A stretch of 64,000 nt of DNA from Candidatus Pyrohabitans jungbluthii. GTDB lineage: Archaea > Hydrothermarchaeota > Hydrothermarchaeia > Hydrothermarchaeales > BMS3B. How positions within the stretch are numbered: the stretch's first letter is position 1; every line of letters begins with the position of its first letter. Under the pieces are notes generated by a model. The model worked only from the letters and a program-made list of their open reading frames with translations. It was not told where the DNA came from and did not search any database. Location of the stretch: assembly GCA_002010065.2 (NCBI GenBank), contig MTMD02000007.1, positions 1 through 64,000 of the forward strand. The letters run 5' to 3'. Of the stretch, positions 8,039 through 42,535 are shown piece by piece. The position numbers and the translations under genes are program-made.

Positions 8039-8101
8039 CACATCGCATCTATTTCGTCAAATATATAAGTGCACCTTCCAAGGCTATACGCAGGTGATGA
8101 T

Positions 8102-8782
8102 ATGCACATAATGGAAGGATTTTTACCTTCACCATGGTGGTACCTCTGGTTTATCTTCACAATACCAGTGCTCGCTTATGGGCTAACGAAGATGCGCGTC
8201 CTTGTGGAGAAAAACCCCGACATAAAGGTGCTCCTCGCCCTTGCGGGAGCCTTTACCTTTGTGCTCTCGGCGCTTAAAATGCCTTCCGTAACCGGCTCAT
8301 GCTCACACCCCACAGGCACGGGCTTAGCGGTGGTGCTCTTTGGGCCGGCGATAACCGCGGTGCTGGCGAGCATAGTGCTGCTATTTCAGGCCCTCCTCCT
8401 TGCCCACGGTGGGCTAACCACGTGGGGCGCCAATGTGGCGAGCATGGGCATAGTTGGTCCCTTCATCGGCTACGCTGTATGGAAGCTCACCTCTAAAATG
8501 AGCACGAGGGTCAGAGTTTTTCTGGCTGCGGCGGTAGCTGACCTCGCAACCTACGTGGTCACCTCGCTACAGCTTGCCCTTGCCTTCCCCGCAAAGGAAG
8601 GAGGTGTGTTGGCAAGCTTTAAAATCTTCGCGAGTATATTCGCGGTAACCCAGGTGCCCCTGGCGATAACAGAAGGTATTGTCACAGTAATAGTGTTCAA
8701 GTACATCCTGGAGCTAAAGCGGGATGTGCTTGTAGAGCTTGGGCTGTTGAAAAAGAGCGCTGCAGGAGGTGCACGTGCATGA
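8102..8782 (+). CDS. cbiM: Cobalt/nickel ECF transporter substrate-binding membrane subunit CbiM
   Basis: 226 residues from the ATG at 8102, chosen because mature CbiM must begin Met-His; here the start reads [12 protein letters not shown]. Known CbiM/NikM proteins use the N-terminal amine and this His2 as metal ligands. A longer frame from 8069 would bury that His. GGTGATGAT lies just upstream as ribosome site. Six to seven membrane helices are visible, with the conserved [13 protein letters not shown] loop supplying further ligands. It heads cbiMNQO. The downstream CbiX favours cobalt over nickel, but this is inference. Confidence 0.95.
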
Positions 8783-9072
8783 GGCTAAGTATAGCAGCTT
8801 TCCTACTGATGCTACTCCTACCCTTCGTTGTCTTTGCGGAGAAAGAGGCAGAACCCTGGAGTGGAGCAGATGCCTTGGCAGAGCAGAAGATTGTCGAGAT
8901 TACCGGCGGCGAATATAAACCCTGGTTTTCGCCGATATGGGAGCCGCCCAGCGGTGAGATAGAGACCTTCCTTTTCTCTCTTCAAGCTGCAGCAGGAGCT
9001 GTGGTGATAGGCTACTTTGTGGGCTACTTCAGGGGCATTAAAGAAGGAATGCGCAGGGCAGAGGCGAGGTAA
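8779..9072 (+). CDS. cbiN: Cobalt transport protein CbiN
   Basis: 97 residues: an N-terminal hydrophobic segment or signal anchor (about 3-20), an outside loop with [18 protein letters not shown], typical of CbiN, and a second helix (about 70-90). CbiN is an auxiliary two-helix subunit that helps load metal into CbiM. It overlaps cbiM by 4 bases (ATGA), so translation is probably coupled. The symbol rests on motif and operon position. Confidence 0.92.
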
Positions 9073-9075
9073 GCT

Positions 9076-9867
9076 ATGCACATAGAGCATGTGCTTGAGA
9101 GTTATGCCCACTCAGGCAGGCTGAGCAGCGTCGCTCCTCAGCTTAAGCTGCTCCTTGCAGGCTCCGCTCTCGTGACGACGGTGTTTTCCACCTCACCTGT
9201 TGCGCCTATTTTTATTTTCCTGGCGATGAGCACAGCACTTCTATTACTGGCAGGCATTCCCCTCAGGGTATACCTCGCTGCACTGGCAGCGCCTGCGTCC
9301 TTCACCTTACCTGTGGTGCTCCTGATGCCCTTCTTTATAGCGAGCGGCGAACCTCTGCTCACAGTAAAGCTTTTCTCCCATACCTTCGTAGCCACCAGAG
9401 AGGGGCTGAATGAAGCCCTACTTCTAGCTTCTCGCGTGCTCGCAGGTAGCGCCTCGCTCTTTTTCATAATCTTCACAACCCCCACCGCGGCGATATTCGC
9501 GGCGATGCGCTCTTTGAGGATACCCGCGCTCTTTGTGGAGATGTGCATGCTCATATACCGCTTCCTCTTTGTGCTAATAGATGAGGCGGAGCGCATGCTT
9601 AAAGCGCAGAAGATTCGCCTGGGTTACGCCAGTTACAGGCGAAGCTTCGATTCCTTCGCCTTGCTTGCCAGCAATCTCTTCCTGCGCTCATATCTAAGGT
9701 CTGAGCATGCCTTCGCGGCCCTTGAGGCGAGGGGCTATAGGGGCAATCTTGAGTTTTCCGAGTTTGGGAGAGCAAGGCTTAACCTCTCAGGGACTCTCCT
9801 CGTGACTACCTTCTCTGCGCTGCTCGCAGCCCTTGCGTATGTTACCAGAAATCTGGAGCTGGTGTGA
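9076..9867 (+). CDS. cbiQ: ECF transporter transmembrane subunit CbiQ
   Basis: 263 residues. Five or so membrane helices lie in the first half and C-terminus. Coupling helices are marked by YRFLFVLIDEAERMLKAQKIR and AFAALEARGYRG; the latter is the Ala-Arg-Gly motif that docks into the ATPase. CbiQ links CbiM to the ATP-driven CbiO. It begins 3 bases after cbiN ends. Confidence 0.93.
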   Translation: MHIEHVLESYAHSGRLSSVAPQLKLLLAGSALVTTVFSTSPVAPIFIFLAMSTALLLLAGIPLRVYLAALAAPASFTLPVVLLMPFFIASGEPLLTVKLFSHTFVATREGLNEALLLASRVLAGSASLFFIIFTTPTAAIFAAMRSLRIPALFVEMCMLIYRFLFVLIDEAERMLKAQKIRLGYASYRRSFDSFALLASNLFLRSYLRSEHAFAALEARGYRGNLEFSEFGRARLNLSGTLLVTTFSALLAALAYVTRNLELV

Positions 9868-11171
9868 AGATGAATATCCTGGAAACTCGCGAATTGGAGT
9901 ACCAGTATCCCGATGGCACCCGTGCGCTGCGCGGGGTAAGCGTCGCCCTTAGAACCAATAACAAAATCGCCTTTGTCGGCTCAAACGGCGCTGGGAAAAG
10001 CACCCTTTTTCTCCACTTCATAGGCATCCTTCGCCCTTCTCGTGGAGAAGTGCTCTTCAGAGGCAAAACCCTGAGGTACGATAAGGCCTCTCTCCTCTCG
10101 CTAAGGCGCAGCGTTGGCATGGTTTTTCAGAATCCGGACGATCAGCTTTTTGCTCCGACGGTGGCGCAGGATGTTAGCTTTGGGCCGAAAAATCTTGGCA
10201 TGAGCGAGGCTGAAGTTGAGGCGAGGGTGAGGAGGGCACTTAAAATCGCTGGCATTGAAGAGCTTGCGGATAAGCCACCTCACCTGCTCAGTTATGGTCA
10301 GAAGAAGCGCGTAGCTATAGCCGGTGTACTCGCCATGGAGCCAGAAGTACTGATTCTGGACGAGCCACTCGCCGGTTTAGACCCTGCAGGCAAGCGCAGA
10401 TTTATTGAATTTCTGAATGATCTTGCGAAGAGGAAAACCATAGCTGTGGCCACGCATGATGTGGACTTCGCGTATGAGTGGGCAGATTATGTATATGTCC
10501 TCCATCGTGGTAAAGTGGTAGCCGAGGGCGAACCCAAGGAGGTTTTCCAGGAGGTAACGCGAGCTAACCTCTCGCCGCCAAGGGTTCTGGAGTTCTACGA
10601 AGCGCTGGCCGAGCTGGGGCTTGCAACACCAGGTATTCAGCCGAGCAACATGTTCGAGCTGGTGCGAAGCGTAGCATCACTGGGTGTGCGCGTAGCCTTG
10701 GCGGAAGACACTTTAAAAGAGGGCGAAGCGGTGAGCTTGGAGGTGGAGAAGGGCAGGATTCTGGCGAAGCCCAGCCGGGAAGGCGGCTCGAGCAGAGTTA
10801 TAAAAACGCTTGATGCGGGGGTGGTGGTCTCCGCCAATGGCAATATCCCACCTAAGGGTAAGGTGTACCTCTACCCCATTGAGAACTTCGACGCTCTTGC
10901 TTTCCAAGAGACGCTGGCTAAGCATGAAGTTGATTTTGTGGCTTCGCTGGGAAGTGAGGCGAGGCTGCTTGTAGAGCGCGAGGGGATAGAGCTTGCTCTG
11001 GAAGGCGCTGCCCTTGAGAGGTGCCTGCTCAAGGCCCTCGCTGGTTACCATGCGCTGCTCCTCATACCCCAAAGCCAGATTGAAGAAACCGTCAAAAAAA
11101 TTCGCAGCTATCTCTCTGGCTGTGCTGCGCCGGAGATTGAAATTTTAAGGGATGGTGGAAATGAAGCATAG
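9864..11171 (+). CDS. cbiO: CbiO ATPase with a C-terminal extra domain
   Basis: 435 residues against about 275-285 for normal CbiO. The ABC domain (about 1-230) shows Walker A (GSNGAGKST), the Q-loop FQNPDDQLF typical of ECF ATPases, the signature LSYGQKKR, Walker B (VLILDEPLAGLD) and the H-loop THDVDFAYEW. After the usual family end comes a ~155-residue extension (about 280-435) with the segments VALAEDTLKEGEAVSLEVEK, GVVVSANGNIPP and ALAGYHALLLIP. No family was recognised for it; it is not a second ABC domain. It overlaps cbiQ by 4 bases. Alternative start ATG at 9870. Confidence 0.92.
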   Translation: MKMNILETRELEYQYPDGTRALRGVSVALRTNNKIAFVGSNGAGKSTLFLHFIGILRPSRGEVLFRGKTLRYDKASLLSLRRSVGMVFQNPDDQLFAPTVAQDVSFGPKNLGMSEAEVEARVRRALKIAGIEELADKPPHLLSYGQKKRVAIAGVLAMEPEVLILDEPLAGLDPAGKRRFIEFLNDLAKRKTIAVATHDVDFAYEWADYVYVLHRGKVVAEGEPKEVFQEVTRANLSPPRVLEFYEALAELGLATPGIQPSNMFELVRSVASLGVRVALAEDTLKEGEAVSLEVEKGRILAKPSREGGSSRVIKTLDAGVVVSANGNIPPKGKVYLYPIENFDALAFQETLAKHEVDFVASLGSEARLLVEREGIELALEGAALERCLLKALAGYHALLLIPQSQIEETVKKIRSYLSGCAAPEIEILRDGGNEA

Positions 11172-11225
11172 CCAGTGTTTATATTATTTACATGAGTTAC
11201 CCCAGGAAAGATAGGAGGTATAGCG

Positions 11226-11636
11226 ATGAAGACCGGTGTAGTTATAGTAGGTCACGGCTCACGCCTGGCTGAGACCCGCGGGATTTATGAAACCATAGCA
11301 AGCGTTGCCCAGGCTAAGTCCGGCTACGAAGTGCGTGTTGGCTACATGAAGCACCATCGCCCCAACCTTGTTGAAGCGGTTCAGAGCCTTATCGATGAAG
11401 GCTTCAAGCGAATTGTGGTGGTGCCTCTGTTCATTGTACCCGGGTTGCATGTGCGCGACGACATCCCCATACTTTTAGGCAAGAAGCAGGGCGAGGTTCC
11501 TGAGTTTGGCTACTCCCGCGTTAACGCCCCGAGCGACGTGGAGATAATTTACGCGGAAGCGATAGGCGCGGACCCCCGCTTAGCCGAGGTTGTGCTCGAC
11601 CGCGTGGCTAAGGCGCTGAACGGCTCAGGGCAATAA
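11226..11636 (+). CDS. cbiX: Sirohydrochlorin cobaltochelatase, small archaeal form (CbiX-S)
   Basis: 136 residues, the half-size archaeal chelatase that works as a homodimer. It opens VVIVGHGSRLAE, where the His is the metal/acid-base residue, and has VPLFIVPGLHVRDDIP, which supplies a second conserved His. It inserts Co(II) into sirohydrochlorin for cobalamin; archaeal CbiX can also insert Fe(II) for siroheme, the DsrAB cofactor. AGGAGGTATAGCG precedes the start. TATA-like DNA at about 11180 suggests its own promoter after the importer operon. Confidence 0.95.
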   Translation: MKTGVVIVGHGSRLAETRGIYETIASVAQAKSGYEVRVGYMKHHRPNLVEAVQSLIDEGFKRIVVVPLFIVPGLHVRDDIPILLGKKQGEVPEFGYSRVNAPSDVEIIYAEAIGADPRLAEVVLDRVAKALNGSGQ

Positions 11637-34561: not shown

Positions 34562-35385
34562 CACTCATCACCCTCCGTCACACCGGAAGCTTCACTTCCG
34601 GGTAACACTGTGCATACATCTTCTACGGGTTTGGGAATAAAGTGCTCTCCACATGCGGTGCAGTCGTCTCGCTTCGCCACTCTAACCTTCTCAAAGCGCA
34701 TCTCGTCCACATTTATTATCAGCAGCTGATTCTTCAGTCCAATCTCCAGTCCAGCGAGGTAACGTATCGCCTCACTCGCCTGTATGGCACCGACGATGCC
34801 CACGACAGAGCCCAGAATACCTGCTTCTCTGCAGGTGGGTATCATGCCCGCGGGTGGCGGCTCGGGGAATACGCATCTAAAGCATGCGGTCTCGCCGGGG
34901 ATTATGCTCATCGCCCTGCCCTCGTACATCAGCGCGGCGCCGTGAAAGAGAGGCACGCGGTTAACCACGGCGGCGTCGTTAACAGCGTAGCGCACAGCGA
35001 AGTTGTCTGTTCCGTCGACGATGGCGTCATAGCCCTTGAGCAGCTCAAAGGCATTGTCGTAGGTTACCTTCTCGTTTATCCCCTCTATCTTAATCTCCGG
35101 GTTTATCTCACTTAGCCGCTTTGCCGCCATCTCCGCCTTGGGTTTGCCAACATCCTCGGGGGTGTAGAGGAACTGCCTGTTCAGGTTGCTCATCTCTATG
35201 CGGTCAAAATCGAAGATGTGAATCTCGCCCACGCCAGCCAGAGTGAGGTAAGTCGAAACCGGGCAGCCCAGTCCACCTGCCCCGGTTACAGCTACTTTGG
35301 CCTTCTTAAGCCTAGACTGCTCCTTGGTACCGAAGTCCGGAAGGATGAGCTGCCTTGAATAGCGCTTTATCTCATTCAGATTCAT
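34561..35385 (-). CDS. E1-like adenylyltransferase (MoeB/ThiF/HesA family)
   Basis: 274 residues. ATP-binding VAVTGAGGLGCPVSTYL, then RIEMSNLNRQFLY, then GTDNFAVRYAVNDA, with CFRC and CTACGEHF forming the zinc knuckle and PTCREAGILGSVVG holding the candidate catalytic Cys. MoeB/ThiF enzymes adenylate the C-terminal Gly-Gly of a ubiquitin-like sulfur carrier so it can become a thiocarboxylate. A matching MoaD-like protein ending in GG lies two genes upstream. The C-terminal 20 residues are unconserved and overlap a GC hairpin in DNA. Confidence 0.93.
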   Translation of the reverse strand: MNLNEIKRYSRQLILPDFGTKEQSRLKKAKVAVTGAGGLGCPVSTYLTLAGVGEIHIFDFDRIEMSNLNRQFLYTPEDVGKPKAEMAAKRLSEINPEIKIEGINEKVTYDNAFELLKGYDAIVDGTDNFAVRYAVNDAAVVNRVPLFHGAALMYEGRAMSIIPGETACFRCVFPEPPPAGMIPTCREAGILGSVVGIVGAIQASEAIRYLAGLEIGLKNQLLIINVDEMRFEKVRVAKRDDCTACGEHFIPKPVEDVCTVLPGSEASGVTEGDE

Positions 35386-35842
35386 GCTCTCGACTCTCCT
35401 TCAGGTAATCTTTAATCTCCCTGACGAACTGGTTGCCCAGCTCTTCAATGCGGAGCTCAAACTCCTCGCCCAGCGTGTCGCCCCTGCCTATGCCGGGGCA
35501 CTCGTCGGCGCAGCGAAGCTTGAGTACCAGCTCGTCCGCGTAAATTATCCCATCGAACAGGAAGGGATACATCTGGCAAGAGAGGGGCTTCACCCCAAGC
35601 TCATGAAGCTCACAGCTCAGATCCTCGCGCAGGAAGATGCATTTTCCAGCCTTGCCCTTGAGGCGGAAGAGCCCCTTCTCAGGCTTGAGCTCTGCGAACT
35701 CCTCCGGTGCTTTGCCTGTTGCACGGGAGATTCGCTCAACTCCTCGCGAGGTGACCACTCTGCCCTCAACGCAGCACTTGGCTCCGCACTCGCGGTAAAC
35801 GCAGGAGAAGCGCTCCACTTTGTGCGGCGAGTATATTATCAC
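35372..35842 (-). CDS. YkgJ-like Cys-cluster (zinc/iron-chelating) protein
   Basis: 156 residues. Cysteines spaced as in the YkgJ/UPF0153 family: FSCVYRECGAKCC at the N-terminus, CIFLREDLSCELHELGVKPLSCQMYPF in the middle, and LKLRCADECPGIG. The eight-Cys set is proposed to bind zinc or an Fe-S cluster; the function is not established. It overlaps the E1 gene start by 14 bases, implying coupled translation in the sulfur-carrier operon. A role in metal or redox modification is possible. Confidence 0.85.
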   Translation of the reverse strand: MIIYSPHKVERFSCVYRECGAKCCVEGRVVTSRGVERISRATGKAPEEFAELKPEKGLFRLKGKAGKCIFLREDLSCELHELGVKPLSCQMYPFLFDGIIYADELVLKLRCADECPGIGRGDTLGEEFELRIEELGNQFVREIKDYLKESREHESE

Positions 35843-35845
35843 CGC

Positions 35846-36115
35846 TCAGCCTCCAGAGACCGCGGGTAAGATGCTTATAACGTCATCCTCGGCGACCTCT
35901 GTGTCTAAGCCTTTCTTGAAGCGCACATCCTCGTTGTTGTGGAAGATGTTTATAAACTGCTTTATCTCGCCGTTCTCAATTATGCGCTCCTTGAAGCCAG
36001 GCTTCGCTTTGTCTATGTTTTCTATAATCTCGCGTATCGTTTTGCCGCTCGCCTGTATTTCGGGCTTACCATCGCTGAACTTTCTAAGGGGGGTAGCAAG
36101 CCTAACTGTTACCAT
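35846..36115 (-). CDS. MoaD/ThiS-family ubiquitin-like sulfur carrier
   Basis: 89 residues with a beta-grasp fold: VTVRLATPLRKFSDGK, IREIIENIDKAKPGFKERII, INIFHNNEDVRFKKGLDTEV and DDVISILPAVSGG. It ends exactly in Gly-Gly, so no protease trimming is needed before adenylation. The insert FHNNEDVRF is the usual loop before the last strands. It overlaps the threonine-synthase-like gene by 7 bases and lies two genes before the E1 enzyme. It is probably a thiocarboxylate sulfur donor. No other molybdopterin gene is nearby. Confidence 0.92.
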   Translation of the reverse strand: MVTVRLATPLRKFSDGKPEIQASGKTIREIIENIDKAKPGFKERIIENGEIKQFINIFHNNEDVRFKKGLDTEVAEDDVISILPAVSGG

Positions 36116-37356
36116 GCGACCACCTCCTTCTCGAGCTTCTTTTCTACTAACTCGCGAAATGCGTCGAGATCAGGCTTTATAACAGGCGGCTTTGTTAAGT
36201 AGTTCGCAAGAACGTCCTGCGTCTTTAAGCCATTGCCTGTGATGTACGCAACAACACTCTCATCGCGGTCGATTTCTCCCGCCTCAACCAGCTTTTTAAG
36301 CGTGGCTATCACAACACCGCCCGCGGTTTCTGTGAATATACCCTCTGTCTTTGCGAGAAGCTTTATCCCCTCGATGATCTCGGGATCGCTGGCAGCGCCG
36401 GCTGTGCCTCCGCTCTCCTTAATCACCTTTACTGCATAGTAGCCGTCCGCTGGATTGCCTATGGCAAGGCTCTTCTCTATCGTATTCGGCTTCACGGGCT
36501 TAATGGGCTCGCCGGTGCGGAACGCCGTGGTTACAGGCGAACATCCCTCGCTCTGGGCTGCGGTAATGCGCGTGTCTGCGCTGTCTATTAAGCCTAGAGT
36601 CTCAAACTCCTTCAAGCCTTTGTATATCTTTGTGAGCAGCGAACCACTGGCTACGGGGATAATCGCCCGCTCTGGAGCGCGCCACCCAAGCTGCTCCGCA
36701 ACCTCGTATCCTAGGGTTTTTGAGCCCTCTGAGTAGAATGGCCTCAAGTTTATGTTCACAAAGCCCCAATTATAGTAGCCTGCGATCTCAGTGCACAGGC
36801 GATTGACATCGTCGTAGTTGCCCTCCACGCTTATAAGGTTGGGGTCGTAGGCAAGGGTCTGGATTATCTTCCCGAGGTTGAGGTTCGCTGGTATGAAGAT
36901 ATAGCAGTTCAGCTTCGCCTTAGCAGCGTGCGCTGCCACGCTGTTCGCCAGGTTACCTGTGGAGGCGCAGCCCACCGTATCGAAGCCAAACTCTATCGCC
37001 TTGCTCACCGCCACGCTCACAACGCGGTCCTTGAATGAGAATGTGGGGTTAACTGAGTCGTTCTTTATGTAAAGCTCCTTTAAGCCGAGAGCTTCCGCTA
37101 AATTATCAGCGCGGTGAAGCGGTGTGAAGCCTGCCTGCAGGTCAACGATGCTCGAATCACTCTCCACAGGCAGGAGTTCGCGGTAGCGCCACAGCGTGGG
37201 TGCACGCTTCTCAATCTTCTCTTTGCTCAGCTTCTCCTTTATCGCCTCGTAGTCGTACTCTACCTCAAGCGGACCAAAGCACTCCTCGCAGATGCTTATC
37301 GCCTCTACGGGGTAGCGCTTTCCACAGTTCCTGCACTTTAGGCTAATGACCGTCAT
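36109..37356 (-). CDS. Threonine synthase-family PLP enzyme linked to a sulfur carrier
   Basis: 415 residues from the ATG at 37356, preceded by GGAAGGTG. An N-terminal zinc-ribbon-like segment (LKCRNCGK, CEECF, residues 7-27) precedes the fold-type II PLP core. The Schiff-base Lys is about residue 109 in NPTFSFKDR, followed by CASTGNLANSVAAHAA and TAGAASDPEII. Sequence is nearest threonine synthase, which makes Thr from O-phosphohomoserine. The operon partners (MoaD, E1, TusA) are unexpected for that reaction. By analogy with CysM/CysO, the enzyme could put carrier-bound sulfur onto an activated serine or homoserine. Threonine synthase remains the default call. Confidence 0.85.
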   Translation of the reverse strand: MTVISLKCRNCGKRYPVEAISICEECFGPLEVEYDYEAIKEKLSKEKIEKRAPTLWRYRELLPVESDSSIVDLQAGFTPLHRADNLAEALGLKELYIKNDSVNPTFSFKDRVVSVAVSKAIEFGFDTVGCASTGNLANSVAAHAAKAKLNCYIFIPANLNLGKIIQTLAYDPNLISVEGNYDDVNRLCTEIAGYYNWGFVNINLRPFYSEGSKTLGYEVAEQLGWRAPERAIIPVASGSLLTKIYKGLKEFETLGLIDSADTRITAAQSEGCSPVTTAFRTGEPIKPVKPNTIEKSLAIGNPADGYYAVKVIKESGGTAGAASDPEIIEGIKLLAKTEGIFTETAGGVVIATLKKLVEAGEIDRDESVVAYITGNGLKTQDVLANYLTKPPVIKPDLDAFRELVEKKLEKEVVAW

Positions 37357-37412
37357 GGTATCACCTTCCAGAATACAGATATGTAACAATATATATAATT
37401 TTCGGTAAAACT

Positions 37413-37821: not shown

Positions 37822-38028
37822 ATGGCGAACATAGAGGTTGATCTCGACGCGTGTGTGGGTTGTGGCACCTGCGAGTCTCTCTGCCCAAGCACCTTCCAGC
37901 TTCAGGACGGCAAGAGCTACGTGATTGGTGACGGCTCAGACTGCGACCTGGAAGAAGTAGTAAACAGCTGCCCGACCAGCGCAATAACTGTCGAGGGCAT
38001 AGGTTCTGCTGAGAGAAAGCAGGTGTAA
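37822..38028 (+). CDS. Single-cluster [4Fe-4S] ferredoxin
   Basis: 68 residues. A cluster motif CVGCGTC in the first 20 residues, then the final cluster Cys in SCPTSAI. Cys21 in ESLCP and the Cys in GSDCD could form the disulfide known from Pyrococcus ferredoxin. It begins with AGGAGG about 10 bases upstream and converges with dsrB. A TATA-like AAATATG lies in the AT-rich gap before it. It is a likely electron carrier for the sulfite reductase or other oxidoreductases. Confidence 0.9.
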   Translation: MANIEVDLDACVGCGTCESLCPSTFQLQDGKSYVIGDGSDCDLEEVVNSCPTSAITVEGIGSAERKQV

Positions 38029-38148: not shown

Positions 38149-39261
38149 TTAGGAGAACTTCTTCATCTCCTTGCCCTTCACGCGAGCGCCGGCGTTCATG
38201 TCGCGGATGTTGAAGATGTAGTCGTCGATGTGCTTGTGGGTGAACTCCAAGCCAGTGCGTTCGAAGAACTCCGTCCAGCCGATGCGCTCTATCCACTCAC
38301 CCATGCGCTCGTCCGGCTTGGCATCGCTGGCCCAGGCGTCGATTATCTTCTTAACTGTCTCCACAACCTCTGGCCAGCGTGGCGGGTTGTTGGGTATGAA
38401 AGGCACCGCGAGGCGCGAGAAGGCGGGACCTCCTCTGGTGTTGGAGATCTTGCCACCCACCCAGATTGAAACGCCGTCGTTCTTGGGGTCAGCCAGTGGT
38501 GTGCCTGGGCAGAGACCATAGCAGATACCGCAGTACATACACTTCTCGCCGTCTATGCTAATGCTCCTTATGGTGGTGCCGTCCTCCTTCTTTATCATCT
38601 TGGGCTTTATTGCATAGGTTGGGCACGCGGCGATCATGCTGGGAATCTCGCACGCCTTGCTAACCACTTCGTCAATAACCGTCGGTGGGCGGCGGTGAAC
38701 GCCTAGGATAGCGATATCCGAGCAGTGCACTGCACCGCACATGTTAAGGCAGCCTGAGACAGCTATTGTGAGGCGCGTGGGAAGCTTCTCGCTCACGAAG
38801 TAGTCGTATAGCTCGTCCATGAGCACCTTCTGAAGACCTGGTGAGTCAGTTGCAGGTGTGTGGCAGTGCACCCAGCCGGTGCATGCTACGATACTGCGCA
38901 CAGTCCTGCCGGTACCACCTACTGGGAATCCCAGCTCCGCAAGTTCCTTCTTCAGGGGCTCCACGTTATCTTTATTGTCCAGGATGAACTCAACGCTGTG
39001 CCTAGAGGTAAAGCGCAGGTAGCCGTTGGCATACTTGTCAGCAAGGTCGCACAGCTTGAGCACAGTCTCGCTAGCGATAAACTTGGGCTGCCCGGCGCGG
39101 ACAGTGTAGGCTTCCTCACCGCTCTCGCTTACGTGCTTGTAAACCCCTGGCTCAAGCTCCTCGTGGTACTTCCACTTGCCGTAATTGCGCTGCACCACAG
39201 GGGGGAGCATCTCCTTATAATCTGGTGGACCAAAATCCAGCTCATCAAAGGAAAGCGCCAT
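38149..39261 (-). CDS. dsrB: Dissimilatory sulfite reductase beta subunit
   Basis: 370 residues, normal length. N-terminal FTSRHSVEFILDNKDNV, then the siroheme/Fe-S region CTGWVHCHTPATDSPG and SGCLNMCGAVHCSDIAILGVHRR, and a ferredoxin domain with CMYCGICYGLCPGTPLADPKNDG. These are the conserved DsrB motifs, with all cluster cysteines present. With DsrA it reduces sulfite by six electrons at a siroheme-[4Fe-4S] site. It starts 13 bases after dsrA, with GGAGGTGAAAG ahead of its ATG. The small dsrD gene, usually downstream of dsrB in sulfate reducers, is missing here. Confidence 0.97.
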   Translation of the reverse strand: MALSFDELDFGPPDYKEMLPPVVQRNYGKWKYHEELEPGVYKHVSESGEEAYTVRAGQPKFIASETVLKLCDLADKYANGYLRFTSRHSVEFILDNKDNVEPLKKELAELGFPVGGTGRTVRSIVACTGWVHCHTPATDSPGLQKVLMDELYDYFVSEKLPTRLTIAVSGCLNMCGAVHCSDIAILGVHRRPPTVIDEVVSKACEIPSMIAACPTYAIKPKMIKKEDGTTIRSISIDGEKCMYCGICYGLCPGTPLADPKNDGVSIWVGGKISNTRGGPAFSRLAVPFIPNNPPRWPEVVETVKKIIDAWASDAKPDERMGEWIERIGWTEFFERTGLEFTHKHIDDYIFNIRDMNAGARVKGKEMKKFS

Positions 39262-39274
39262 CTTCTTTCACCTC

Positions 39275-40444
39275 CTACTCCTCATCCACCTGTACTTCGC
39301 CCGGGAAGTAGAACCAGAACGGGTTGTTCCTGGGCGCCTTCACCATCGTTGGCAGTGGGTCAAGTCCCACTTCGTGGAGGAACTTGCCAGCGCCTATGCG
39401 GTATATGGTTTCGCCGATTCTCTCCTTCGCTCTGCCGTTCTCATCCCACCAGTCGAGAAGCTTGTACATCAGCTCTTTAAGCTCAGTGTACGGAGGCTCC
39501 AGCTTCATGAAGGGTATCAGCGTCCACGCCAAGAAGGCACCGTAGCGACCTCTCGCACGTCCGCCAACGAGTATCGTGGCACCCCTGTCGTCTCCTGGGG
39601 AGAGTGCCTTGGGCATCTTCTGCAGGCAGTACATGCAGCGCACGCACTCGTCGTTGTTTATCTTGAGCTCATTACCATCCCAGCTCATCGCATTTGTGGG
39701 ACAGTTTTTAACTATGTACTCCACATCCACCTTGCCACTCTTGGCGTAGTTCCTTACTTCCTCCTGATCTATCTTGATGTCATCGCGCCAAGTACCCATT
39801 ATAACGAAGTCTGCTCTGGGAACACCTGCAACGCAATCGGTGGGGCAGCCGGAGATCTTCACCTTGAACTTGTACGGGAAGCGCGGGCGGTGCATGTCGT
39901 TGAGGATCTCTTCGTCGGTCATCAGAGTGTGGTATATATCGTTGGTGTCTATGCACGCCATTTCACAGCGCGCGGGGCCGATACAGTTGCTCGCAGTACG
40001 GAAGTCGCCAGCGCTTCCTCCAATGTCCCAGTGCTCCTTCGCTGCCTCGTCGAAGAAGGGTTCAATGTTCTCAGTTGGTATGCCCACAACCTGCAGGTCT
40101 CCAGTGGCGCCGTGGAAGTTCATCAAACCAGAGCCGTACTTGTTCCACAGTTCAACAAGCTTGCGCAGCTTCTTTGTGCTGTAGAACCACCCGGCGGGCT
40201 GGATGAACCTTATTGTGTGGGCATCTGCGAGGATGTCACGCCTGTCAGAGACCCTGCCAATAACACCAGCGTCGTAGCCGGGAACACCCACCATGCCGCC
40301 ATGGGTCCAGTGGGTCATTTTGTCTTCGTAGTTCAGCTCATAGAGCTTGAGCAGCCCAGTGTAGCCCGTCTTTTTAATCTCTTTGACTATACTGGGCCAT
40401 GGCCCCTTTTCAAGCTCGTCCAGAAGAGGGGTTTCCGATGCCAC
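39275..40444 (-). CDS. dsrA: Dissimilatory sulfite reductase alpha subunit
   Basis: 389 residues from a GTG at 40444 (GGAGGTGAAATGAG upstream). It has WTHGGMVGVPGYDAGVIGRVSD near the start, the siroheme set NCIGPARCEMAC and ISGCPTDCVAG, and a ferredoxin domain with CVRCMYCLQKMPKAL, in which the fourth ligand position differs from CxxCxxCxxxCP. The catalytic sulfite-binding pattern and both ligand sets are kept. It is the first gene of dsrAB. The TATA-like stretch at 40514-40528 on the minus strand gives about 45 bases of leader. Confidence 0.97.
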   Translation of the reverse strand: MASETPLLDELEKGPWPSIVKEIKKTGYTGLLKLYELNYEDKMTHWTHGGMVGVPGYDAGVIGRVSDRRDILADAHTIRFIQPAGWFYSTKKLRKLVELWNKYGSGLMNFHGATGDLQVVGIPTENIEPFFDEAAKEHWDIGGSAGDFRTASNCIGPARCEMACIDTNDIYHTLMTDEEILNDMHRPRFPYKFKVKISGCPTDCVAGVPRADFVIMGTWRDDIKIDQEEVRNYAKSGKVDVEYIVKNCPTNAMSWDGNELKINNDECVRCMYCLQKMPKALSPGDDRGATILVGGRARGRYGAFLAWTLIPFMKLEPPYTELKELMYKLLDWWDENGRAKERIGETIYRIGAGKFLHEVGLDPLPTMVKAPRNNPFWFYFPGEVQVDEE

Positions 40445-40560
40445 CTCATTTCACCTCCTGCCTTAGTTACAACAAAATCTACCTACGCCTAGCGAATTGA
40501 ATTAAAGTTTTTTTGGTATATATAATTTTTCATTAAAGTGACCAGTCTGTGCAAAGTTGC

Positions 40561-40614
40561 CCACAACCGTGCACAATTTTACCTCGTTAGGCTACGCTGC
40601 GCCTATGGTTGTGG
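40561..40614 (+). promoter_or_regulatory. Structured leader ahead of the HemA-like operon
   Basis: Outer arms CCACAACC (40561-40568) and GGTTGTGG (40607-40614) and inner arms TAGGC (40588-40592) and GCCTA (40601-40605) can stack on the 3' side with one bulge base. The stem ends 4 bases before the ATG at 40619. If transcribed, it would sit on the start region and could act as a control element. No known riboswitch class was recognised. Confidence 0.4.
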
Positions 40615-40618
40615 TTTT

Positions 40619-41161
40619 ATGGACAAGGAGGAATTTCTGGAGAGGTTCTACCTCGACGAGGAGGAGAGGCACAAGCGTGCGGAGCGCATAAGCAAGGGGA
40701 TGGTGCGCTACGAGCGCAAGAAGAACGCCATTTTCACCTTTAAAGACAGCGTTGCCAAAATCGACCTCTGCGAGGTGTGCAGGCATCCCAAGGGCGTGAC
40801 CTATACCCTGTGCGAGGTTGTGCCGAGCTTTGAAAATGTGGACGTTGGCGAGATGCTCGTCGAGGCGAGGGAGAAGGCAGAGGTGTTCTGCAAGAGCGAG
40901 GGCACCAGGGGGCAGTGCATAATCAACATAGTGATACCCCCGGAGCCTAAGATGATTATGGAGCTTGGTGAGCACCTCGACGAGATGACAAAGCTTGGAA
41001 ACTTCGCTGTTACCGTGTACGACACGAAGAGCGGGAAGATGGGAATGCTTGTGATAGATGAGAGCTTCCTTTCAGAGCTGCGCGAGGACCCCGATTACAA
41101 GGGGATGAGCGACGCCGAGATATTCACGAATTTTATGATGAACTACGCTGAGCTACTATGA
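40619..41161 (+). CDS. Uncharacterised cysteine-containing protein, divergent from dsrAB
   Basis: 180 residues from the ATG at 40619. The frame extends upstream to 40538, but those residues overlap the structured leader. Family not recognised. The N-terminal ~45 residues are charged and helical; then DLCEVCRHPKGVTYTLCEVV carries three Cys. The middle reads FCKSEGTRGQCIINIVIPPEPKM, and the C-terminal part is alpha/beta (NFAVTVYDTKSGKMGMLVIDESFL). It is the first gene of an operon with the HemA-like protein, 4-base overlap (ATGA). Its position suggests a tetrapyrrole- or sulfite-related role; unproven. Confidence 0.7.
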   Translation: MDKEEFLERFYLDEEERHKRAERISKGMVRYERKKNAIFTFKDSVAKIDLCEVCRHPKGVTYTLCEVVPSFENVDVGEMLVEAREKAEVFCKSEGTRGQCIINIVIPPEPKMIMELGEHLDEMTKLGNFAVTVYDTKSGKMGMLVIDESFLSELREDPDYKGMSDAEIFTNFMMNYAELL

Positions 41162-42135
41162 CGCTGCTTTGCTTATCTCTGCACCACATAAAAACGAGCT
41201 ATAAGAACTTCTCCCGGGTTAGGTTTTCCTCTCCCTCGAGCTTTTATGAGGCCACTCAGAGCTTTGGCGAGCGAGTGTTATTCCAGACTGGCACCAGGGT
41301 TGAGGTATACACTACTGGCGATTCAACATCTGCGATGCTGAAGGTGCTATCACAACACAGTGGCATCGCAGAGGAGGAACTCTCAAAGCTGTTCATGGTT
41401 TACAGTGCCTCCGACGCAGCGGAGCATCTTTTCAGACTTGCGTGCTGCATTGAGTCTCGCGTGCTGGGCGAAACCTATATCCCCTGGCAGGTGGAGGCGG
41501 CGCTTGAGCAAGCTAAAGCGGCAGGTGCCGCTGGCGAGGTGCTTGAAAAGCTTTTCGGCGCATCGCTGCAGGCAAGCAGGAGGGCAATAGAGGAGACGGG
41601 CATAGCCAAAGGCGACCTCCACATCAGGGCACTGGAGGCGCTTCGTGCAGCGACAGAGCTTAAAGGAAAAAAGGTGCTCCTGTACGGCGCAGGTTTAACC
41701 GGCAGAAGGGTTGCAAAGCTGGCTAAGCAGCATGGCGCAAGCATCGCCGTACTAAACCGCAACTACGACATAGCGCAGCGATGTGCACATGAGATTGGCG
41801 CTGAGGCGCTTAATTATGAGGAGCGCAATGACGCGCTGAGGGATGCCGACATCCTGGTATGCGCCACTCTCGCCTCGCACTACCGCGTTACCCCGGAGCT
41901 TCTCGCTAAGCTTGAGCGGGAGAAGCGCCTTGTGATTCTTGATGTCTCACCCTTCAGAAACGTCTCGCCAGAGGTGGCGAAGCTTGGCTTTGTCACCCTT
42001 GTTAACGGCGGGGTAGCGAAGGCTGCGGAGGAGAACCTCAAGGCGATGAGGGTAGAGGTTCCCAAAGTGGAGGGGATAGTGGCTGAGGAGCTGGCCAAGC
42101 TCAGGGCTGAGCTTCCTGAGCTTTTTGAGGTGTGA
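41158..42135 (+). CDS. Glutamyl-tRNA reductase-like protein lacking the catalytic cysteine
   Basis: 325 residues, shorter than the 400-plus of most GluTRs. The N-terminal catalytic region is FQTGTRVEVY where active GluTR has a TCNRVEVY pattern; the nucleophilic Cys is Gly45 (GGC at 41290-41292). The middle part matches the fold (LFRLACCIESRVLGETYIPWQVEAALEQAK), and a Rossmann motif (VLLYGAGLTGRRVAKL) and NAD(P) region follow. The dimerisation helix is shortened. GluTR makes glutamate semialdehyde for tetrapyrroles; without the Cys, no thioester can form. It may be a regulator, a changed enzyme or a decaying copy. A true hemA should exist elsewhere. Confidence 0.8.
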   Translation: MTLLCLSLHHIKTSYKNFSRVRFSSPSSFYEATQSFGERVLFQTGTRVEVYTTGDSTSAMLKVLSQHSGIAEEELSKLFMVYSASDAAEHLFRLACCIESRVLGETYIPWQVEAALEQAKAAGAAGEVLEKLFGASLQASRRAIEETGIAKGDLHIRALEALRAATELKGKKVLLYGAGLTGRRVAKLAKQHGASIAVLNRNYDIAQRCAHEIGAEALNYEERNDALRDADILVCATLASHYRVTPELLAKLEREKRLVILDVSPFRNVSPEVAKLGFVTLVNGGVAKAAEENLKAMRVEVPKVEGIVAEELAKLRAELPELFEV

Positions 42136-42138
42136 ACC

Positions 42139-42336
42139 ATGCCCTACATAGCGCTTGAGCTTGGCGACGAGGATTTGGAGCATGCGAAGCTGGTGCTTGG
42201 CGAAGCATGCGAGAGCTGCGAGGTTAATATAGATGGCAGAGTGGAGAAAGGGATACTGCTGTCAAAGAAGACCCCTAAAAATCTTTACGCCCTCCTCGCG
42301 ATATACATGCAGAACCGCGTGGACTGGAGGCGGTGA
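42139..42336 (+). CDS. Uncharacterised 65-residue protein (first of a pair)
   Basis: 65 residues, 3 bases after the HemA-like stop, so the same operon. It opens PYIALELGDEDLEHAKLVLG and has Cys residues in EACESCEVN. It resembles the next gene in length and in its first ~20 residues. No family was recognised. Small alpha/beta fold likely. Confidence 0.65.
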   Translation: MPYIALELGDEDLEHAKLVLGEACESCEVNIDGRVEKGILLSKKTPKNLYALLAIYMQNRVDWRR

Positions 42337-42337
42337 G

Positions 42338-42535
42338 ATGGGCTACGTGCTCCTCGAAGTCAGCGACGAAGCCTTCGCAGCCATAGAGGCGCTGTTAAAG
42401 GGAAGCTTCCGAAAGCTCAGCGTGGAGTGCTCCTCCTTCAAAGAAGGTGAAGAGGTTCTGGTTTTCGAGGAAAGGCTGAGCTCTGGCGACTACCACCTGC
42501 TCCAGTCGATACTGGTGCAGGATTTGGAGTGGTAG
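42338..42535 (+). CDS. Uncharacterised 65-residue protein (second of a pair)
   Basis: 65 residues from the ATG at 42338, preceded by GGAGGCGGTGAG. It opens GYVLLEVSDEAFAAIEALLKG, similar in pattern to the start of the preceding protein. A single Cys lies mid-protein. It converges with the radical SAM gene (stops one base apart). Function unknown. Confidence 0.65.
   Translation: MGYVLLEVSDEAFAAIEALLKGSFRKLSVECSSFKEGEEVLVFEERLSSGDYHLLQSILVQDLEW

Follow-up and report, generated by a model that had tools for sequence, protein, structure and literature searches.

A conserved cysteine-less paralogue of glutamyl-tRNA reductase is linked to dsrAB in Hydrothermarchaeota

Glutamyl-tRNA reductase (GluTR) traps glutamate as a cysteine thioester, which is then reduced with NADPH (PMC7242693; PMC6399207). 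The DsrAB proteins of Hydrothermarchaeota and EX4484-52 form a 'transitional archaeal' type in published trees (PMC12948486). We analysed a stretch of 64,000 nucleotides (the window) from a Hydrothermarchaeota MAG near Ca. Pyrohabitans, in which a GluTR paralogue, here named HemAp, is encoded next to dsrAB; the hosts of HemAp are deep-sea archaea. HemAp shares the GlutR_N and NADP-binding domains with GluTR (HemA, TIGR01035; 1GPJ of Methanopyrus kandleri), as well as the substrate-site Arg, Ser and Glu and, in most members, the His and the GxGxxG motif. It differs from GluTR in that the catalytic Cys is lost, the adjacent Asn is replaced by Thr, the dimerisation domain is gone and the score falls below the TIGR01035 cut-off, and also in its own CATLASH and SPF signatures and its linkage to dsrAB. 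In HemAp, the enzyme family responsible for the first step of C5 tetrapyrrole synthesis has a conserved, non-canonical member, tied to one of the most ancient enzymes of respiration. Automatic annotation would probably label it hemA, misleadingly.

A second HemA that lacks the catalytic Cys, with QTASR or QTQSR in its place, was observed in ammonia-oxidising archaea (L122:6500-7576, L124, L125 and L126, from genomes G264, G066, G024 and G314), and amoA was present in all 11 of the tested genomes bearing it. Like HemAp, this protein is a Cys-less GluTR paralogue, mostly shortened, whose genome also encodes a canonical HemA; unlike HemAp, it falls in a separate clade, sister to the canonical HemA of its own group, and carries neither CATLASH nor SPF. 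Judging from these sequence relationships, the loss of Cys in the ammonia oxidisers is independent of that in HemAp, which shows that copies of this kind have arisen more than once.

Table 1. Features of the HemAp locus, with positions in the window.
Feature	Position	Strand	Basis or remark
Small 4Fe-4S ferredoxin	37822..38028	+	Recurs beside dsrB or HemAp in relatives
dsrB	38149..39261	-	TIGR02066, 485.6 bits (cut-off 341.5)
dsrA	39275..40444	-	TIGR02064, 478.5 bits (cut-off 392.85); CX5C and CX3C motifs visible
Inverted repeat TGTGCA-N16-TGCACA, possible operator	40548..40575	.	Divergent intergenic region between dsrA and CysP-HemAp
'CysP', 180 aa, no assigned family	40619..41161	+	Invariant C-x2-C-x-H-P
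HemAp, Cys-less GluTR paralogue, 325 aa	41158..42135	+	ORF translation, family searches
TGTR codons ACT GGC ACC AGG	41287..41298	+	GGC occupies the catalytic-Cys position of GluTR
Family signature CATLASH, residues 235-241	41860..41880	+	Alignment of HemAp members
Family signature SPF, residues 264-266	41947..41955	+	Alignment of HemAp members
65-aa protein 1	42139..42336	+	Pyrohabitans-type genomes only
65-aa protein 2	42338..42535	+	Pyrohabitans-type genomes only
AhbD-like radical SAM/SPASM protein, TIGR04053	42537..43745	-	413.4 bits (cut-off 395); start codon inferred

The sequence-only reading of this DNA had described an open reading frame of 325 residues with TGTR at the active site, in which Cys is changed to Gly and Asn to Thr, and all of this is seen in the sequence. 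The motif CAG ACT GGC ACC AGG encodes QTGTR, compared with QTCNR in normal GluTR, with GGC as codon 45 (41290-41292) and ACC as codon 46 (41293-41295); the conserved VLGExQILGQ of GluTR is likewise altered, to VLGETYIPWQ, and the protein ends upstream of the C-terminal dimerisation domain. With the catalytic Cys missing, HemAp cannot use the known thioester route, as that reading had argued. Both domains of the GluTR fold were recovered in searches: Pfam matches comprised GlutR_N (E=1.8e-25) and a Rossmann domain, and the M. kandleri GluTR 1GPJ matched over nearly the full length (E=7.6e-52; profile residues 3-317). TIGR01035 also matched (E=1.4e-57), but at 195.5 bits, below its cut-off of 209.55. 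The HemAp of the window carries the NADP motif GxGxxG, and the precorrin-2 dehydrogenase (SirC/Met8p) family was not among its best 25 NCBIfam or 13 Pfam matches. An AlphaFold model made from three sequences was poor (pLDDT 56), and therefore no cleft geometry could be read from it; its Rossmann part, which alone resembles solved folds, is closest to 1GPJ (Z 15.6).

HemAp was searched for in 61 and then 394 archaeal genomes; coverage of bacteria consisted of one peptide-pattern scan of genome contigs, whose matches were two close archaeal relatives. The scores split cleanly, with mostly complete HemAp at 232-464 bits, fragments on broken contigs scoring below that range, and canonical GluTR at about 200 bits or less. 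Of the 23 genomes in the class, 17 carry HemAp, as does one genome from another phylum (G044), which may belong to EX4484-52, a phylum given the same DsrAB type in PMC12948486. In the phylogenetic tree all HemAp proteins formed a single clade (support 100/100), separate from all canonical HemA. Among 15 aligned members the catalytic position is occupied by Gly, Asn, Ser or Ala, never by Cys, and the next Asn is always Thr; Cys is present in 25 of 25 aligned canonical HemA sequences. The absence of Cys is conserved among relatives. Arg47, Ser100 and Glu105, which correspond to known substrate-site residues of GluTR, are invariant across HemAp, and further (near-)invariant residues are specific to it: HH 9-10, Tyr15, Phe18, FY 29-30, CATLASH and SPF. 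His90 and GxGxxG are kept in all aligned members (13 of 15) except G020 and G022, in which GxGxxG is gone and Tyr replaces His90 while the other invariant residues are retained. Most members also have an Arg that could contact NADP.

The nearest relatives are encoded on a contig of Ca. Pyrohabitans JdFR-17 (94 % identity) and in another MAG (78 %). The possibility of a sequencing error, raised with the original claim, is ruled out by these and a third relative, since TGTR recurs in separate MAGs whose proteins are 94, 78 and 71 % identical and none has Cys. Values of dN/dS were 0.15-0.22 for HemAp and 0.07-0.19 for canonical HemA, and the relatives together with these values rule out a pseudogene. 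HemAp is a coherent, conserved family under purifying selection. No description of a Cys-less GluTR paralogue or of a dsr-linked hemA was found in the literature, within incomplete coverage of subscription papers; what sets this GluTR paralogue apart is its altered active site and its new genetic setting.

An intact copy of hemA is present in the same genome, as the sequence-only reading had suggested looking for. It is the sole other HemAp homologue there, encodes 444 residues with QTCNR, and lies on contig C8 with a SirC-like gene on one side and hemB on the other. Canonical hemA likewise adjoins SirC, and usually hemB, in the remaining carriers that were examined. HemAp as the only hemA of the genome is thereby ruled out, and, given the normal enzyme, HemAp is unlikely to form ALA. 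Nor does it appear to fill a gap in siroheme synthesis: all named siroheme steps checked are present, and since both SirC and a CfbA/CbiX-type chelatase (the latter within the window) are encoded, there is no missing step for HemAp to supply. The chelatase gene follows cobalt transporter genes (CbiM, CbiQ and CbiO-like) at 8069-11636. CobB-type genes, considered in case HemAp replaces DsrN, are widespread in the class independently of dsrAB and were not found in G044. In Pyrohabitans-type genomes, the search for AhbC (TIGR04546) yielded AhbD-like proteins only.

The neighbours reported for HemAp are indeed there, with some corrections (Table 1). The stop codon of CysP overlaps the HemAp start as ATGA, and dsrAB is transcribed divergently from this CysP-HemAp operon. 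CysP occurs in just 9 of the 394 archaeal genomes; its AlphaFold model (pLDDT 69) gave weak nuclease-like (PD-(D/E)XK-type) matches with Z up to 8.7. The two 65-residue proteins, which have no detectable similarity to each other, were seen in Pyrohabitans-type genomes only. The exact inverted repeat occurs once in the window, within a leader that is conserved in four genomes of the Pyrohabitans type, and G012 and G017 contain similar GTGCA/GCACAACC pieces. The 5' leader of the locus folds better than shuffled sequences in two of four genomes, and an Rfam scan of the locus gave no matches.

Linkage of HemAp to dsrAB extends well beyond the window. HemAp is divergent from dsrAB or within a few kb of it in nine genomes of five families (G000, G001, G002, G003, G011, G012, G015, G017 and G044), and is not next to it in five (G005, G006, G007, G020 and G021). 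Among the 23 genomes of the class, classical dsrAB was found in 15 of 17 HemAp carriers (G011 counted by a dsrB fragment and G008 by a dsrB-type match only) and in none of the six non-carriers (Fisher p=2.8e-4, shared descent ignored). The two carriers without dsrAB are incomplete genomes (62 and 88 % complete). One non-carrier, G016, has only a divergent dsr (327 bits, below cut-off), and G012 has both dsr types, with HemAp adjoining the classical one. In G004, a 93 % complete genome from the genus of the window's MAG, HemAp, dsrAB, CysP and the radical-SAM gene are all missing together. HemAp is absent from seven further archaeal genomes with dsrA, which fall in three families and include Archaeoglobales-type archaea; the link is therefore to one branch of DsrAB. 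A role connected with DsrAB or siroheme, which had been proposed from this one locus, gains support from linkage and from a shared distribution that spans families and extends to one other phylum. Distance correlations, from seven genomes and thus too few, were equal for HemAp-DsrA and HemAp-HemA (0.67) and 0.76 for HemAp and the radical-SAM protein.

The AhbD-like radical-SAM gene downstream shows almost the same pattern. Its product resembles AhbD/NirJ-type proteins in scoring over the TIGR04053 cut-off, with AhbD haem b synthase as the second-best model; it was rejected as AhbD itself, for which a better candidate exists on contig C2 of G000 (464 bits, cut-off 500). Close orthologues (>400 bits) were found in G000, G001, G002, G003, G005, G006, G010, G011, G012, G015, G020, G021 and G044, with a fragment in G008, and in no HemAp-less genome of the class; none was found in the HemAp carriers G007 (96 % complete), G009, G017 and G022. 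Its position is next to HemAp or close by in seven genomes (G000, G001, G003, G010, G011, G015 and G044). HemAp-less archaea with dsrAB can have TIGR04053 proteins too, and the partner is therefore broader in range than HemAp. In G044 both HemAp and the radical-SAM gene lie less than 4 kb from dsrAB, and their products are 58 and 75 % identical, respectively, to those of G011, whereas the canonical HemA of G044 is merely 45-50 % identical to those of the class. These identities fit a transfer of HemAp and the radical-SAM gene as a set. A NirJ1/AhbC-like radical-SAM gene, distinct from TIGR04053, lies directly ahead of dsrAB in G020 (L145:7117-10557).

Since HemAp is conserved and comes and goes with dsrAB, it was probably recruited for finishing or handling the DsrAB cofactor. 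We tentatively propose, at somewhat less than even confidence, that HemAp is a neofunctionalised GluTR whose cleft binds a carboxylate-bearing tetrapyrrole and which finishes or delivers the cofactor of this branch's DsrAB; ligand, partner and any chemistry are inferred. HemAp retains the GluTR cleft that separates the catalytic from the nucleotide-binding domain; it cannot form a glutamyl thioester there, and the cleft would bind siroheme, a siroheme precursor or a siroheme side chain. From the dsrAB linkage and the AhbD-like partner, the likeliest ligand is siroheme or one of its precursors that bear propionate and acetate side chains, which HemAp, probably together with the radical-SAM protein, would finish or deliver to DsrAB. 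The alignment places the new invariant stretches after Rossmann strands, and the ends of these strands are predicted to point into this cleft. A re-used binding cleft is the simplest reading of HemAp, and the loss of GxGxxG in G020 and G022 makes binding a likelier common function than redox. The kinship of the radical-SAM partner to the tetrapyrrole-modifying AhbD/NirJ also speaks in favour. Counted against it are the already complete siroheme steps, the motif loss in G020 and G022, the five genomes in which HemAp and dsrAB are not adjacent, the occurrence of dsrAB archaea and of TIGR04053 without HemAp, and the lack of the partner in G007. Should HemAp act on the cofactor of DsrAB, siroheme in this archaeal branch would pass through a further maturation step. 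A bolder form, which we consider doubtful, would make HemAp and TIGR04053 a DsrAB-specific cofactor-finishing module for making or inserting an undescribed derivative of siroheme in DsrAB of the transitional archaeal type, with HemAp as a GluTR-fold tetrapyrrole-side-chain enzyme or chaperone passing between phyla with dsrAB.

The main rival to a role with the cofactor is a regulatory pseudoenzyme that binds HemA, HemL or Glu-tRNA and tunes ALA supply to the amount of siroheme that DsrAB expression demands; it would thereby directly link sulfite respiration to ALA supply. Loss of catalysis with retention of the substrate-site residues, tolerance of NADP motif loss in two members and the independent Cys-less HemA of ammonia oxidisers would all suit such a protein. 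However, simple heterodimers with HemA are unlikely once the dimerisation domain is gone, the strongest new invariants (CATLASH and SPF) would be superfluous for a mere decoy, and the co-occurring partner is an AhbD-like protein rather than an ALA-pathway gene; we regard regulation as possible but unlikely. Improbable, in our estimate, is an oxidoreductase that would use NADP(H) to act on the ring of a tetrapyrrole or on one of its carboxylates, which develops the suggestion of a porphyrin dehydrogenase or sensor in the sequence-only reading. The prevalence of GxGxxG and the likeness of the Rossmann part to 1GPJ are what it would predict, but the precorrin-2 dehydrogenase step is already supplied by SirC, with CfbA/CbiX also present, and the absence of the glycine motif from two distant members speaks against an obligatory redox reaction. 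A Glu-tRNA-dependent transferase, whose Cys-less cleft hands the glutamyl group directly to an acceptor, would make use of the invariant Arg47, Ser100 and Glu105 but has no known acceptor, and we consider it very improbable. Finally, the chance that HemAp is a decaying hemA duplicate or a sequencing error is negligible: it has fewer residues than GluTR and a higher rate of evolution than canonical HemA (dN/dS 0.165 versus 0.068 for G000-G003), but the Cys-less family is conserved over many family-level groups, under purifying selection and with invariant residues of its own.

Two further observations concern dsrAB itself. Between G000 and G001 (L034), dS was 0.62 for dsrA compared with 0.16-0.21 for hemA and HemAp, a difference that suggests an exchange of dsrAB among closely related lineages. 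Adjoining dsrB, at 34564-37389 of the window, are genes for an E1-like protein, a small MoaD/ThiS-like protein and a threonine-synthase-like protein (the latter two assigned by reading the sequence), which also occur together in G003 and possibly serve thiocarboxylate-dependent sulfur assimilation.
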